Shown here piece by piece: positions 59,109-64,000 of a stretch of DNA of 64,000 nt (position 1 is the first letter of the stretch; every line of letters starts with the position of its first letter). Source of the DNA: Collimonas fungivorans Ter331 (GTDB lineage Bacteria; Pseudomonadota; Gammaproteobacteria; Burkholderiales; Burkholderiaceae_D); the NCBI RefSeq assembly GCF_000221045.1, contig NC_015856.1, forward strand, positions 124,001-188,000, read 5' to 3'. The notes below the pieces were generated by a model. That model made no database searches. It was not told the DNA's origin and was given only the letters and a program-made list of their open reading frames with translations. The translations under genes were made by a program, and so were the position numbers.

Positions 59109-59681
59109 TTACTCGGTTGACTGCGGGCCCAGCAGGATGGCGGGAAAGTTTTCTATCATGCGCAAAAAGGGACCGTTGCTGTCCAGCGCGCGCGACACGA
59201 TCAGCGAACCCTGGATCGCCACTACCGCGTTTTCCGCACGCACCGCCGCCTCCACCTTGTCGACGCCAGCCTGTTCCGCCACCTCGGCCAGCAAGGCCAT
59301 CAGCGCCCGCATGCGGGCGCCCAGGTGCTGCTGGAACAGCGAACCGGCCTCGCCTATGGTGAACACGTCCATCAGGCAGGGCGCCGTGCCGTTAGCGTAA
59401 TATTCCGTCAACTTGCCGGCGAAACGCTGCAAGCGGATGGCGGAGACCTCGCGGCTGTTCAAGGTGGACAGCACATGCTGGGTAAACCAGGCGCCGACCG
59501 CTCCCATGGCGGCGCTCGCCATGTCTTCCTTGCCATTCGGGAAATAATGGTAAAGACTGGACCGGCCCAGTCCGGTGGCTTCAGACAGGCGCGACAGGCT
59601 GCTGCCCTCATAGCCGTAGCGGCGGAAAGCGGCAAGAATGCGGTCGACAACCTGGTCGCGGGTGAGAGTGGCTACTGGCAT
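59109..59681 (-). CDS. TetR family transcriptional regulator
   Basis: A 190-residue protein. LSRLSEATGLGRSSLYHYFPNGKED at about 27-51 is the TetR helix-turn-helix of the YcdC/LfrR type, and the rest is the ligand domain. It lies upstream of, and on the same strand as, the GST gene. The palindromes at 59038 and 59701 indicate repression of both GST-PNPOx and itself. The ATG at 59681 puts the DNA-binding domain at the N-terminus; earlier in-frame starts are less likely. Confidence 0.92.
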   Translation of the reverse strand: MPVATLTRDQVVDRILAAFRRYGYEGSSLSRLSEATGLGRSSLYHYFPNGKEDMASAAMGAVGAWFTQHVLSTLNSREVSAIRLQRFAGKLTEYYANGTAPCLMDVFTIGEAGSLFQQHLGARMRALMALLAEVAEQAGVDKVEAAVRAENAVVAIQGSLIVSRALDSNGPFLRMIENFPAILLGPQSTE

Positions 59682-59700
59682 AAAATTCAGACCTGACGTT

Positions 59701-59720
59701 TGTACCGAATGTTCGTTGCT
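59701..59720. promoter_or_regulatory. Imperfect TetR operator copy upstream of tetR
   Basis: TGTACCGA at 59701-59708 matches the perfect operator half at 59038; the right half TCGTTGCT keeps the first three bases. It lies 20 bases before the tetR start, as expected for autoregulation. Confidence 0.45.
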
Positions 59721-59807
59721 ATCAATGTAGAGGTGAAATACCAAAACAGCAAGGGCATCTGTGCAAAATCCGCGCGCGTGATCCGCAATCTGGGGGAAGT
59801 GCAATAA

Positions 59808-59826
59808 TAGTTGCTTAGCTAATTAT
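59808..59826. promoter_or_regulatory. MarR-type site upstream of marR
   Basis: TAGTTGCTTAGCTAATTA contains the palindrome TTAGCTAA at 59815-59822, 20 bases before the marR start. A near-identical stretch lies at 60307-60322 upstream of the next gene. Confidence 0.5.
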
Positions 59827-59845
59827 ATTTATCTAGAATAAAGCC

Positions 59846-60262
59846 ATGTTCGATCACTGCCTCTATTTCAACACCACTGCGCTGGCGCGCGTCGTCGAGC
59901 GCGAGTGGAATGCTGCCTACCAGCCGTTCGACCTGACTGCGCCGCAGGGTTTCGTCTTGCGCGCAGTGTTGAGGCAGCCGGGCCTGCTCAATAGCGAACT
60001 GGCCGGCATCTTCGGCATTGCCCGGCCGACGGCGACCCGGCTGCTGGATGCGCTGCTGGCCAAGAATCTCATCGAACGTCGCCCTTCTGCCGCCGACGGC
60101 CGTGAATGGAATATCTTTCCGACCGCGGCGGCGCTGGCGCTGGACGAACCGATCAACGCCGTCAGCGCGGAACTGGCCCAGCGTCTGCGCGGGCAGATGG
60201 GAGGCGAGCGCTTTGACGATTCGATCAGCGCCCTGCGCGGAGTCAGGGAAAGCATCGGCTGA
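59846..60262 (+). CDS. MarR family transcriptional regulator
   Basis: A 138-residue winged-helix protein. LTAPQGFVLRAVLRQPGLLNSELAGIFGIARPTATRLLDALLAKNLIERRPSAADGR covers helices 2-4 and the wing, given here in broken form: recognition helix near RPTATRLLD. MarR dimers release DNA on binding phenolic or other small ligands. A TAGCTAA site lies just before it and again before the next gene, consistent with control of both. Confidence 0.92.
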   Translation: MFDHCLYFNTTALARVVEREWNAAYQPFDLTAPQGFVLRAVLRQPGLLNSELAGIFGIARPTATRLLDALLAKNLIERRPSAADGREWNIFPTAAALALDEPINAVSAELAQRLRGQMGGERFDDSISALRGVRESIG

Positions 60263-60306
60263 TTGCCGGGACGCAGCAGGCAAGCCAGCCTTAATTTTTA
60301 TCCAAT

Positions 60307-60322
60307 TAGTTGTCTAGCTAAC
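60307..60322. promoter_or_regulatory. MarR-type site upstream of small membrane protein
   Basis: TAGTTGTCTAGCTAAC repeats the element at 59808 with two changes. It lies 20 bases before the start at 60343. Confidence 0.5.
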
Positions 60323-60342
60323 TTATTTGGGAAGGAATCGCC

Positions 60343-60597
60343 ATGCCAGCCATTTCAAGGGATGTGCAGAAAACCGCGGGACGCCACGCCATGCTGGCGG
60401 CGCTGGCAGTTGCCGCTGCGGCGGCCGGAATCATCCTGTACTTCTTCGCCGAGCCAGGCCTGCTGGATAGCCAGGGTGCTTGCCTGGCGGCGCATGCGGC
60501 CGACTACGGCGTCACCACGCAGCAACTGCGCAGCGACGTCAGCCGTCAGCCGGAACTGGTGGCGGCGCTGTCGTCCTGTTCCGGCATGGCGCCTTAG
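60343..60597 (+). CDS. Small membrane-anchored hypothetical protein
   Basis: An 84-residue protein with one hydrophobic segment (about 16-36, LAALAVAAAAAGIILYFF) and a short outside domain with two Cys (GACLAAH, SSCSGMAP). GAAGGA precedes the ATG. The function is unknown. It carries the MarR site and probably belongs to that regulator. Confidence 0.75.
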   Translation: MPAISRDVQKTAGRHAMLAALAVAAAAAGIILYFFAEPGLLDSQGACLAAHAADYGVTTQQLRSDVSRQPELVAALSSCSGMAP

Positions 60598-60652
60598 TTG
60601 CAACAGGGCGCACCCAGCGCCACGCCAAGATGCATAGCCGATGCCTTGCCGT

Positions 60653-61390
60653 TCAGGTATTGGGTTTGATGATACCCATCATGACCGCTCTGCTAATTGC
60701 ATGGCGGGTACTGTAGACGCCCAGCTTCATCGCCACATTCTTCATGTGGAAATACACGGTGCGCTGCGATATGCCCAGGATCAGGCCGATTTCGCTGCTG
60801 GTCTTGCCGTCGGCGCTCCAGCGCAGGCATTCGAGTTCGCGCGCCGACAGGATCGGTTCCTGGTTCGGCGCCACCTTGCGCCACAAGCGTTCAGCCGCTT
60901 CCTGCAGATAGACGCCGAGCAGCAGGGCGTCGGCCTGGGCCGCGGTAGACATCACCGCCGGACCCGCCGCATTGCTATAGAAATCGAGGCGGCTCGCCGT
61001 ATGCTTGCTGTGCAGCGCCACGCTCATGCCCTGCGTGACGCCCTTGGTCTTCAACAAGGGATAGATCTGTCCGCCGTGCAGCAGGCACAACTGGTCGACC
61101 TGCCAGTTCAGCGGCAGGCAGGAACGCACCAGATGCTGCCGGACCGGATCGGTCTTGTCGTCTGCCGGCTGGCCGAACTGCTGCAGCATGGCGCTTGGCA
61201 GGCTGCCGAACAGCTGCACCTGCGCCACGCCGTTGACGCCGGCGATCTCCATCCGCAACATGAAATCGCACATGCCGAGCTGCGCCAGCAGCCGTTGCAT
61301 GCATGCGCGCAGCTGCTCCCAGTCGGGAGCCTGCACGACCTGCAGCAGGTCGGGAGCGGATAATCGAGGAGCGGTTTCGCTTCGCAGCAT
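60653..61390 (-). CDS. LuxR-family regulator with autoinducer-binding-like domain
   Basis: A 245-residue protein. Residues 1-170 match the autoinducer-binding fold. The DP pair in KTDPVRQ and the Trp in LPLNWQV correspond to TraR Asp70, Pro71 and Trp85. At the TraR Trp57 and Tyr61 positions (LPSAMLQQF) it has Met and Phe. The C-terminal LuxR helix-turn-helix (about 180-240; LSARELECLRWSADGKTSSEIG, TVYFHMKNVAMKLGV) is complete. No luxI gene is seen, so it is a solo. It starts 12 bases after the response-regulator stop and is probably translated from the same mRNA. Confidence 0.9.
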   Translation of the reverse strand: MLRSETAPRLSAPDLLQVVQAPDWEQLRACMQRLLAQLGMCDFMLRMEIAGVNGVAQVQLFGSLPSAMLQQFGQPADDKTDPVRQHLVRSCLPLNWQVDQLCLLHGGQIYPLLKTKGVTQGMSVALHSKHTASRLDFYSNAAGPAVMSTAAQADALLLGVYLQEAAERLWRKVAPNQEPILSARELECLRWSADGKTSSEIGLILGISQRTVYFHMKNVAMKLGVYSTRHAISRAVMMGIIKPNT

Positions 61391-61402
61391 GGGATGGGGG
61401 TT

Positions 61403-62416
61403 CTATGATTTTATGTCGGCGGACTGGTCGCGCAAGAAATCCGCCAAGGAATAAAAGGGTTCGCGTAAATAATGGGTCGGGAAATCAAACAGCGCCCAAT
61501 AGTAGTCCTGGGCGCCGAAACAAATCTGGGCCGGCAGACAGTATGATAGCCAATCGTGGCGCAACGCGTCGGTATACATGCCGCCGCTGTCGGAAAAGAA
61601 CGGCACCAGCCGCATTTCGCGCAGGCCGGTCAGCAATTCCAGCGGCGCGCCGTAGTCTTGCGCCACCTCCAGCTGCGACATCAGGCTGGCTTCGGTTTCC
61701 ACCACCATCAGCGTTGCCTTGCCCTGCATGTCGAAGAACAGGATGCCGGTCGGGTTGGGAAACAGGTAATACTCGACAAAGCCGTGCCGTTTGCACAGCT
61801 GTTCGACCAGCGTTTCCAGCGCCGGGTCCGACAGGAACGTATAGGAATGGCGCGACAGCAGGTCTTTCAGCGTCAGCGACTGGGCATGGAAGAATTCCTT
61901 TTGCAGGCTGCGGATTTCCAGTTCCAGGTGGTCGAGCGCATCGTGGTCGCTTTTCTTGATGAAGCGGTCGATCAGGCCGCGGTTGAAGGCGTCGATTGCG
62001 ATCTTTTCGTCGGCCTGGCCGGTAAACAGGATCTTCTTGCAAGGCAGGTCCTGCACCGCCTGGCAAAACGCCAGGCCGTTCATTTGCGGCATGGCGTAGT
62101 CGATCACCAGCACCGACGGCAGCAGGAAACGGCGGCGGTTCATCGATTGCCGGTAAATCTGCTCGATATCTACCGCCACCGTGCGCCGTTCGAACGAGAA
62201 CGCCTGTTCATCGTAATTGACCCGGATCGACTGGCTCTTGCTGGGCGAATGGCGATAGGCGTCGCGCAGCCACTCGAGGGCGGCCTGGGTATCGTGGAAC
62301 ACCTTGCGCGCCATGTGCGGCGGCAGCTGGAAAGCCAGGCTGTCGAGGAAACTCTGGCTATCGTCGATCAGGATAGTCAGGGTCGGATGTTGATAAACAG
62401 GTAATGAAATATTCAT
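61403..62416 (-). CDS. LqsR/JqsR-like response regulator
   Basis: A 337-residue protein. Residues 10-165 form a receiver with acidic pocket Asp18-Asp19, phosphoacceptor Asp106 (VLVIDYAMPQMNG), Thr in KKILFTGQ and Lys in RFIKKSD. About 35 extra residues (near 55-95) separate the second and third strands. The C-terminal half lacks a known DNA-binding domain and fits the LqsR-type output domain (YYLFPNPTGILFFD, ALFDFPTHYL). In Legionella LqsR acts downstream of the LAI-sensing kinases. It lies between the kinase (54-base gap) and luxR genes. Confidence 0.85.
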   Translation of the reverse strand: MNISLPVYQHPTLTILIDDSQSFLDSLAFQLPPHMARKVFHDTQAALEWLRDAYRHSPSKSQSIRVNYDEQAFSFERRTVAVDIEQIYRQSMNRRRFLLPSVLVIDYAMPQMNGLAFCQAVQDLPCKKILFTGQADEKIAIDAFNRGLIDRFIKKSDHDALDHLELEIRSLQKEFFHAQSLTLKDLLSRHSYTFLSDPALETLVEQLCKRHGFVEYYLFPNPTGILFFDMQGKATLMVVETEASLMSQLEVAQDYGAPLELLTGLREMRLVPFFSDSGGMYTDALRHDWLSYCLPAQICFGAQDYYWALFDFPTHYLREPFYSLADFLRDQSADIKS

Positions 62417-62470
62417 GTCAGGGGCATTGCCGGCGCAAGGATGGCGTTTGCGCTTGGTCTGGAAAGACAG

Positions 62471-63790
62471 TTAATTTAACAGAGAGCGCATGTCTGCTGC
62501 TTTTTGTTGCACTATGGGTGGAAAATCCAGCACAAAAATGGTGTAGCGGAGCGGACGTGAAACCACGCGTATGCGCGCCCCCCAGGCTTCCAGCACGTCC
62601 TTGCAAAAAGCCAGCCCGATGCCGGTGCCGCTGGATTCGGGATAGGCGTAAAAGCGTTCGAAAATCTGCGAGGTGCGGCCTGCCTCTATGCCGCAGCCGG
62701 TATCGATGAACAGCAGCCTTGGCCTCGGGCGGGTGCCGTCCAGCACAATCCGGATCCGGCCCTTGCCGACGCGCTGGATCGAAGTCAAGGCATTGCGCAG
62801 CAAATTGATCAGGACCATCGAACACAGCTCGACCTGTCCCAGCAGGCGAAAATCGGAGCGGATCGTGATGGCCACCAGCTCACGCTGTTCCTGGTTGACG
62901 AACGGATAGCGCTGCATCATCAGTTCCACCACTGCAGCCATCGACACGATGTCCTTCGGCACCAGGTTTTCCCTGCCGGTCGAGGCGCTCAGCAGGAACA
63001 GGTCGATTACGTTGTTCATGTGGCGGACTTCGAGTTCGATCCGGGCCAGCGCCTTTTCCATCGGCACCTGGCTTGGCGTCGCCTGCGGCGCGTTCTCCTG
63101 AAGCAGCCGGCTCAAGCCGCGCGCATTGGCGTTGATGCTGCGCAAAGGCGTGCGCAATTCGTGCGATACGGTCGCCAGCGCGGTCGCCATGCCGGCCAGC
63201 TTTTCCCGCGCCAGGACTTTTCTGCCGACCTTGGCGAGCGACACCGTGAATACCGCGAACAGCTGGATCGGCACTTGTTCCAGCATCTCCGGACGGAGCG
63301 GCATGAGGCTGCCGTGGACTACTGAATAAACAACGTAAGCGAGCAGGGTTCCTATGACATACGACAGGAAGGCCAGGGCGGTGTCGAAGTGGAACAGGAG
63401 GATCAGTCCGATCAGCAGCGACTGGCCCCATATCGCTGAACCGTCATTCATGAGGAACATGAACGTGAAAAAAAACGGCAGGCCGAAGGTCAGGCAAACG
63501 AAAAAATAAGCCGCCAGCCATTTTCTCTGGCGCAGGTGGCGAATCAAGATGATCGGCCCGCAGAGCGCGACGCAAAACAGGCGCAGGCTGAGGTTTTCGT
63601 ACGGCTGCGGAAACCAGTACGCCCAGACCACGTAATACAGCGGCATGCCGATCACGGCGACCCACGCCAAGATCGCTACGCGGTTGGCCATGTCATTGAA
63701 TTGAGTATTGATGCTCAGCCACCAGCGGCTTGCCGCGCGCTCCCAAGCCCGCCAGCGCTTGCTTTTCCAGCTGCTAATGTTTTCAATCAT
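62471..63790 (-). CDS. LqsS/CqsS/JqsS-like membrane histidine kinase
   Basis: A 439-residue sensor kinase. The first 190 residues hold about six membrane helices (VAILAWVAVIGMPLYYVVW, LAAYFFVCLTFGLPFFFTF, ALAFLSYVIGTLLAYVV and others). The DHp helix has ATVSHELRTPL with His210. The ATPase has NLLRNAL (N box), DTGCGIE (G1), FERFYAY (F) and GTGIGLA (G2). LqsS and CqsS respond to alpha-hydroxyketone autoinducers; the class is assigned from the membrane layout and the LqsR-like partner. No autoinducer synthase gene is seen to the left; a divergent gene begins at 63954. Confidence 0.88.
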   Translation of the reverse strand: MIENISSWKSKRWRAWERAASRWWLSINTQFNDMANRVAILAWVAVIGMPLYYVVWAYWFPQPYENLSLRLFCVALCGPIILIRHLRQRKWLAAYFFVCLTFGLPFFFTFMFLMNDGSAIWGQSLLIGLILLFHFDTALAFLSYVIGTLLAYVVYSVVHGSLMPLRPEMLEQVPIQLFAVFTVSLAKVGRKVLAREKLAGMATALATVSHELRTPLRSINANARGLSRLLQENAPQATPSQVPMEKALARIELEVRHMNNVIDLFLLSASTGRENLVPKDIVSMAAVVELMMQRYPFVNQEQRELVAITIRSDFRLLGQVELCSMVLINLLRNALTSIQRVGKGRIRIVLDGTRPRPRLLFIDTGCGIEAGRTSQIFERFYAYPESSGTGIGLAFCKDVLEAWGARIRVVSRPLRYTIFVLDFPPIVQQKAADMRSLLN

Positions 63791-63844
63791 GATGTATCAG
63801 ATATTAGGCCTATTGGATTTGATGCGGGGTCGTTGCGAGGCGAC

Positions 63845-63855
63845 GCTAAGTTAGC
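63845..63855. promoter_or_regulatory. GCTAAGTTAGC palindrome upstream of kinase gene
   Basis: An 11-base palindrome with a further GCTAAG at 63861-63866 in the divergent gap between the kinase and the right-edge gene. Possible operator. Confidence 0.35.
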
Positions 63856-63953
63856 GATGTGCTAAGTCCAATTGCATAACCTGATTCCACGTTCCAGACA
63901 GGGACATGGCGGCTCTGTTTGGTTTTTCATCTGAAAGTATAGGGGAGAAAATC

Positions 63954-64000
63954 ATGCCATTAACAGAAAGCTACCACGAACCTTTGATTTTGGCAGCAGA
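63954..64000 (+). CDS. Start of a gene cut by the right edge
   Basis: GGGGAG lies 8 bases before the ATG at 63954, and 15 codons (MPLTESYHEPLILAA) are seen. It is divergent from the kinase gene. The product cannot be identified; an autoinducer synthase (JqsA/LqsA) would be one possibility given the neighbours, but nothing in the 15 residues shows this. Confidence 0.6.
   Translation, partial: MPLTESYHEPLILAA

Follow-up and report, generated by a model that had tools for sequence, protein, structure and literature searches.

A LuxR-type gene behind the LqsR-type response regulator of the jqs cluster of Collimonas fungivorans Ter331, a candidate DNA-binding output of ketone signalling

In Janthinobacterium sp. 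HH01/HH102, the ketone signalling system JQS has jqsA, jqsS and jqsR side by side, and no luxR gene behind jqsR is described in the available parts of the reports on it (PMC3566124, PMC5080296). According to the accessible portion of Haack et al. 2016, the sequence TTGAN6/7TCAA (JAI-1 motif) lies upstream of jqsA in all strains studied and upstream of other JAI-1-dependent genes, and a 49-bp deletion including the motif lowered vioA promoter activity by 75-90% (PMC5080296). In the Lqs system of Legionella, lqsS and lqsR are convergent and flank hdeD, the Cqs cluster of Vibrio cholerae has no LqsR, and neither is described with a LuxR-type partner in the accessible parts of these sources (PMC3376566, PMC3566124). 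The C-terminal part of LqsR-type regulators matches no known output domain, and their route to DNA is an open question in the section available to us (PMC3376566). Here, we describe a cluster of homologous jqsA, jqsS and jqsR genes, side by side, in a stretch of 64,000 nucleotides of Collimonas fungivorans Ter331 (contig NC_015856.1, positions 124,001 to 188,000; the whole stretch is called the window below). The cluster resembles Lqs and Cqs in its CqsA-type synthase and LqsR-type regulator, but it differs from Lqs in gene order, from the V. cholerae cluster in having jqsR, from JQS in the absence of the JAI-1 motif, and from all three in a luxR gene directly behind jqsR. We found no description of such a luxR in a literature search that took in the Collimonas quorum-sensing literature incompletely. 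At a rough probability of 0.48, slightly under even odds, we propose that this LuxR, coupled to JqsR, serves the ketone circuit as its DNA-binding output and not as a ketone receptor. A lineage with LuxR fixed behind an LqsR-type regulator and with a changed promoter is a testable candidate for the missing step to DNA, in a soil bacterial genus; in relatives without luxR the same promoter holds another control sequence, an indication that LuxR took over as the switch of the system.

Positions below are those of the window (G000:C1:124001-188000, where G000 is the own genome; the own locus is L004). The minus strand carries, in order, the kinase gene jqsS, the LqsR-family gene jqsR and the LuxR-type gene luxR, with intergenic gaps of 54 and 12 bp. 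The open reading frames (ORFs), common direction and gaps given in a preliminary description of this DNA were thus confirmed. That description had also found no synthase in the window, which did not hold, since the first 47 bases of jqsA lie inside it, divergent from the kinase gene. The features are as follows.

60653-61390, minus strand: luxR, 245 aa; terminal gene of the putative operon; product with an altered ligand-binding pocket; Pfam matches to Autoind_bind (32.4 bits) and GerE (61.8 bits)
61403-62416, minus strand: jqsR, 337 aa; LqsR-family response regulator without recognised DNA-binding domain
62471-63790, minus strand: jqsS, 439 aa; membrane histidine kinase, CqsS/LqsS-like; HisKA and HATPase_c
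63791-63953, no strand: divergent jqsS/jqsA intergenic region, with 0 JAI-1 motif sites (TTGAN6/7TCAA)
63894-63922, plus strand: inverted repeat CCAGACAG-N13-CTGTTTGG, 31 bp ahead of jqsA; putative operator or hairpin in the mRNA
63954-64000, plus strand: start of jqsA, CqsA-type autoinducer synthase, which continues past the window to C1:189201 (L004:6201)
63240-64000, no strand: in-window part of an exchanged cassette (JqsS sensor, intergenic region and JqsA N-terminus), extending, depending on the strain pair, to about 64550 or beyond, as judged from sliding identity and trees of 13 Collimonas

Extension to the right, proposed earlier as a check on the gene at 63954, identified that gene as CqsA type by its match to PDB 2wk8 ('CAI-1 autoinducer synthase'; E-value (E) 1.9e-106, residues 18-392 of 415), the runner-up family being serine palmitoyltransferase (E 4.9e-42). 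The locus is therefore a complete jqs (lqs/cqs-type) cluster of the alpha-hydroxyketone quorum-sensing type, with jqsA divergent from jqsS-jqsR and with luxR added behind jqsR. In the accessible part of Hornung et al. 2013, a synthase of Ter331 is listed in the legend to a tree, which already implied a jqs cluster in this strain (PMC3566124).

JqsS has HisKA and HATPase_c domains (Pfam) and hydrophobic segments within residues 38-163. A model built from 16 JqsS sequences of the bacterial family was run on the kinases of 40 loci outside it, where it spanned the sensor and catalytic parts in 12 of 12 synthase-linked kinases and likewise in seven more jqsR-adjacent kinases; in those of L172-L174, L188, L191 and L207-L209 it matched the catalytic part alone or weak pieces. 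By this model, and not by an alignment of V. cholerae CqsS or L. pneumophila LqsS, JqsS appears to belong with the synthase-linked kinases of the CqsS/LqsS group. Among the matches listed for window proteins, no NCBIfam family scored above its own cut-off, the best for the kinase being LuxN_Vibrio, whose 98.8 bits fall short of its cut-off of 1550 and come from the catalytic part alone. JqsR matched PDB 6sy9 (titled 'Response regulator', and which we take to be Legionella LqsR) with E 1.7e-48 over residues 3-309 of 337, and its D106 was invariant in a 12-sequence alignment. The earlier assignment of an LqsS/LqsR-type pair, with the kinase inside the LqsS/CqsS group, is borne out by this match, by the grouping of JqsS and by linkage to a CqsA-type synthase. 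Pfam finds the receiver domain and nothing else in JqsR, with no DNA-binding domain, so that an output factor would be needed.

The luxR gene is an add-on of one lineage. A search for JqsR within the bacterial family examined 392 genomes, of which 251 gave a match, about 138 at E 1e-50 or better among the matches listed; from 118 of these genomes jqsR loci were taken at 120 places (three genomes with two), which with the own locus make 121 loci. At 15 of the 121, luxR lies directly behind jqsR, namely in 13 of 13 Collimonas genomes with jqsR, in Pseudoduganella rivuli (G359) and in an Oxalobacteraceae metagenome-assembled genome (MAG; G038), and 106 have no such luxR. Two of the 15 Collimonas genomes searched (G083, G217) gave no jqsR match. 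In a second survey, contigs were scanned with the LuxR alignment via two short peptide patterns, which gave 14 loci; 11 have jqsR beside luxR, Pseudoduganella ginsengisoli and a Burkholderiaceae MAG included, and three have no jqsR (a second copy in Collimonas OK242, Massilia horti, and Burkholderia anthina, the last with a helix-turn-helix match only). Beyond the 15 family loci, luxR directly follows jqsR in two more records (L169, L170), and linked luxR outside Collimonas amounts to four genomes (two Pseudoduganella, two MAGs). The order kinase-LqsR-LuxR, which the preliminary description had proposed to look for, is thus kept throughout the jqsR-bearing Collimonas, and luxR stands behind jqsR in four further genomes, but it is no general rule. 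Outside the family, no LuxR adjoined jqsR at any of 40 jqsR loci, which are part of the places found and of which L172, L193 and L199 end less than 450 bp behind jqsR; a weak LuxR-type match lies 0.84 kb downstream of jqsR in L206. Plasmid records hold LqsR-like proteins in 12 cases, all below 60% identity, and no LuxR of this kind at E 1e-20.

In all 13 Collimonas loci the gap between jqsR and luxR is 12-24 bp, so this spacing is not chance, and the linkage was retained while LuxR identity fell to about 40%. From the conserved spacing we infer that jqsS, jqsR and luxR are co-transcribed. A promoter scan is of little weight here: it gave no minus-strand site between jqsR and luxR, but likewise none ahead of jqsS or jqsA. 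Comparison with 12 Collimonas gave ratios of nonsynonymous to synonymous substitution of 0.16-0.30 for luxR and 0.007-0.066 for jqsR; luxR is under purifying selection.

The promoter of the cluster differs between loci with and without luxR. Among the 123 loci that entered the motif count, the 91 with both jqsA and jqsS (89 of the family set plus L169 and L170) were kept and 32 dropped. The JAI-1 motif is present in the intergenic region of 74 of the 75 clusters without luxR (the exception is L074) as against 0 of the 16 with luxR; the remaining sequence of these loci gave a background of 11 sites in 1.105 Mb and 4 in 0.231 Mb. The window has 0 sites, and so has L004. Fisher's p for this contrast (6.5e-17) overstates independence since the JqsRs of luxR clusters share one clade, and the contrast is one or few evolutionary events, not 91 trials. 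The motif fits TTGATN4ATCAA in 35 of the 75 luxR-less clusters (among L055-L157). We take this to be the consensus of FNR/ANR-type boxes, and the regulator at the JAI-1 motif may be a protein of the CRP/FNR family. Many luxR-less loci carry a gene of about 843 aa convergent with jqsR, which was weighed as a possible missing regulator; its L055 copy, read from sequence, resembles an ABC-transporter permease. A 13-bp palindrome, CGCTAAGTTAGCG, in the own intergenic region was rejected as an operator, being present in L004 and L038 only.

Two allelic types of the unit made up of the JqsS sensor, the intergenic region and the JqsA N-terminus occur among the 13 Collimonas clusters compared (L004 and L038-L049), and jqsR and luxR are not exchanged along with it. 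Between L004 and L039, sliding identity is 90-95% in jqsR and the jqsS catalytic part and drops to 74% and then 58% across the jqsS sensor and intergenic region. It rises within jqsA from 70-75% at the N-terminus to 85-88% at the C-terminus, and beyond jqsA it is mostly 88-93%, apart from bins of 75 and 76%. Between L040 and L043 there is a like drop (77, 74, 57 and 68%), followed by 77-80% through the end of jqsA and then 83-91%. In the trees of the jqsS sensor and jqsA N-terminus, type 2 (5 of 13 strains) stands on one side of a 100/100 branch, while in those of jqsR, the jqsS catalytic part and the LuxR ligand domain the types need 3 changes, at least 2 of them forced by well-supported branches. 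The types were assigned from jqsA and the intergenic region, so the jqsA split helped define them and the independent evidence is the sensor tree together with the jqsR/luxR discordance. The simplest reading would be exchange of a signal/sensor unit, as in pherotypes. Strain-specific signal types are known from peptide signalling systems, and the cassettes suggest that ketone signals come in such types too.

The exchange bears on the view that LuxR is a second, cytoplasmic receptor of the JqsA product, so that one ketone would be perceived both at the membrane, by JqsS, and in the cytosol, by LuxR. Linkage of luxR to a synthase and the presence of a ligand-binding domain speak for this view. 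LuxR lies outside the exchanged unit, which argues against LuxR as a receptor that specifically recognises the varying part of the signal: the LuxR ligand domain did not travel with the JqsA N-terminus and JqsS sensor, and type 2 strains are scattered on the LuxR and jqsR trees. Moreover, jqsR-luxR persists without a synthase in the Oxalobacteraceae MAG G038 (L051/L166), where jqsS and jqsA are absent from the locus, the upstream neighbours are transposase-like and gltB-like genes (judged from ORFs), and no CqsA-type synthase was found in the genome, its best match of 28% identity being at paralogue level. We consider a second receptor of the ketone unlikely. The preliminary description had allowed LuxR to be an output or a second input of the ketone system; the former is better supported, by the promoter, the cassette and the G038 MAG, and the latter less so.

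The LuxR protein has the Pfam domains Autoind_bind and GerE, and its structure model (mean predicted local distance difference test score, pLDDT, 84.8) is nearest to QscR, a TraR, SdiA and RhlR, with template modelling (TM) scores near 0.5; both domains and the modelled fold place it in the LuxR family, and it is like LuxR solos and RhlR in this respect. The pocket conserved in N-acyl homoserine lactone (AHL) receptors comprises Tyr/Trp/Tyr plus Asp/Trp/Gly. In the window LuxR, L64/M68/F72 replace the canonical Y/W/Y, and D81, P82, W96 and G121 are retained. All 17 linked copies have Leu, a hydrophobic residue or Thr, and Phe (Leu in L049 and L170) in place of Tyr/Trp/Tyr; they keep Asp, Trp and Gly, and Pro82 in all except L051. 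The other LuxR of the genome and three outgroup copies retain Tyr/Trp/Tyr at the aligned positions, and an alignment with LasR is consistent with the pocket changes. By the canonical Tyr/Trp/Tyr set, therefore, the window LuxR does not look like an AHL-binding receptor. No luxI partner stands beside it either, in line with the earlier statement that the window has none; the genome has a single luxI-type match, at C1:2305173 (near C1:2.305 Mb), next to another luxR. This place (C1:2305173-2306563; L235) holds the luxI-type match, with one TGA counted within it, and a canonical-pocket luxR.

Loss of Y/W/Y with retention of D81, P82, W96 and G121 is what could be expected for a non-AHL ligand, and it thereby favours a LuxR that receives the ketone itself. 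However, the same pocket is seen in unlinked relatives. At more than 220 bits, the LuxR model gave 24 matches in 23 of the 392 genomes. Of these matches, 15 adjoin jqsR and 9 do not; the latter comprise a second copy in G028 and single copies in G212, G234, G323, G313, G375, G155, G057 and G385, and no jqs genes occur at the loci of these nine (L223-L230, L234). Nine of ten unlinked LuxRs of the subfamily lack all three pocket residues and the tenth (L234) keeps the middle one, Trp; the pocket change therefore does not depend on linkage. Unlinked relatives, which the preliminary description had named as a finding that would speak against it, thus exist, but luxR is linked in all 13 Collimonas with jqsR. 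The second LuxR copy of Collimonas OK242 (L165/L234) is 67% identical, has Trp at pocket position 68 and lies away from jqs genes.

LuxR solos are known to read exogenous signals, and the LuxR studied here might respond to a different ligand (an AHL made by the own luxI, or a compound from plants or fungi) and have only the transcript in common with the ketone system, so that two inputs are joined. The genome does hold a luxI-type gene and another luxR, and C. fungivorans Ter331 is reported to make AHLs in the accessible parts of two papers (PMC4690342, PMC11288634). On the other hand, all 17 linked copies have lost the canonical AHL-contact residues, which the other LuxR of the genome keeps, and such sensing would leave the promoter difference unexplained. 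We regard it as quite unlikely.

The output reading is preferred because of the promoter difference between clusters with and without luxR, the failure of LuxR to move with the cassette, and the persistence of jqsR-luxR alone in the G038 MAG. In the proposed working, JqsA would make the ketone signal, putatively an alpha-hydroxyketone or amino ketone; JqsS would sense it in the membrane and set the phosphorylation of JqsR; JqsR, having no recognised DNA-binding domain, would act via LuxR by protein contact; and LuxR would control jqsA-jqsS and probably other genes. RhlR in its complex with PqsE (PDB 8dq0) offers an earlier example of a LuxR protein partnered by another protein; the partner in our case would be a response regulator in the same putative operon. 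A more far-reaching proposal, which we hold to be possible but doubtful, is that the pair of JqsR and a LuxR with remodelled pocket replaced ancestral control by the JAI-1 motif, and that synthase and sensor domains swap above it as pherotype cassettes while the JqsR-LuxR output stays.

Several findings weigh against LuxR as the output. The JqsRs of luxR clusters form essentially one clade (approximate likelihood ratio test, SH-aLRT, 90; tree made by a quick method with 128 of 131 rows, the other 3, which include Collimonas L044, having been removed because of their length). A single event may thus account for the promoter contrast, and motif loss and luxR gain could be unrelated. The same clade also holds L053, a jqsR without luxR. 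Linked LuxRs are not one clade in the LuxR tree (4 changes, with long branches), and JqsR evolves much more slowly than LuxR. G212 has both an unlinked LuxR of the subfamily and a jqs cluster that retains the JAI-1 motif (L069), which argues against a strict either-or of LuxR and motif. Of 7 terminator-like matches (shuffled mean 3.9), one lies at 61517-61490, within the jqsR 3' end and upstream of luxR, and could mean weaker read-through into luxR. One clade of linked JqsRs also means that one insertion would be enough to explain the neighbourhood, the luxR gene having come in once behind jqsR and stayed by descent with an independent function; the 106 of 121 family loci without luxR are in keeping with this. 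We think it improbable, since linkage was kept despite LuxR divergence to about 40% identity and, in G038, despite loss of jqsS and jqsA, and since jqsR and LuxR tend to co-occur when unlinked. All genomes with an unlinked LuxR except G057 hold jqsR (7 of 8 genomes with an unlinked copy only), and in G234, G323, G313 and G375 the LuxR copies are near-identical and jqsR is an orphan; such co-occurrence is no more than suggestive.

A candidate new control element lies before jqsA. The inverted repeat CCAGRCRG-N13/16-CTGTYTGG is present 30-33 bp before jqsA in 13 of 13 Collimonas, from which the pattern was derived, and its arms are kept in both cassette types though the intergenic regions are only 55% identical between types, which counts in favour of the output reading. 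Neither the 3 other luxR clusters nor the 75 luxR-less ones have the repeat, and a slightly narrower pattern gave one site in the whole own genome (control 0); absence from luxR clusters outside Collimonas and the single occurrence do not favour a LuxR operator. By inspection, all listed substitutions in the arms retain G-U or Watson-Crick pairing, and the spacer differs by 3 bp between types; an mRNA hairpin is therefore at least as likely as an operator, which again tells against the output reading.

The DNA downstream of luxR (window 59150-60600) is 45-57% identical between the otherwise near-identical L004 and L038 clusters, so the cluster borders a variable region. L146 and L147 have a convergent ORF of 388-389 aa with a weak LuxR-type match. 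Fifteen of the 121 loci have jqsS and jqsR with no jqsA there (L097, L102-L104, L107, L114, L115, L118, L119, L121-L124, L130 and L153, the last with matches in pieces). These are possible receiver-only clusters; G133, the only one of their genomes searched whole, has no synthase above 26%. At 16 of the 121 loci (L052, L053, L054, L063, L133, L134, L137, L138, L140, L143, L146-L148, L150, L151 and L154) an LqsR-family regulator has no jqsS or jqsA nearby, and at least G021, G037, G148 and G222 among these orphan-regulator genomes have a CqsA-type synthase elsewhere.

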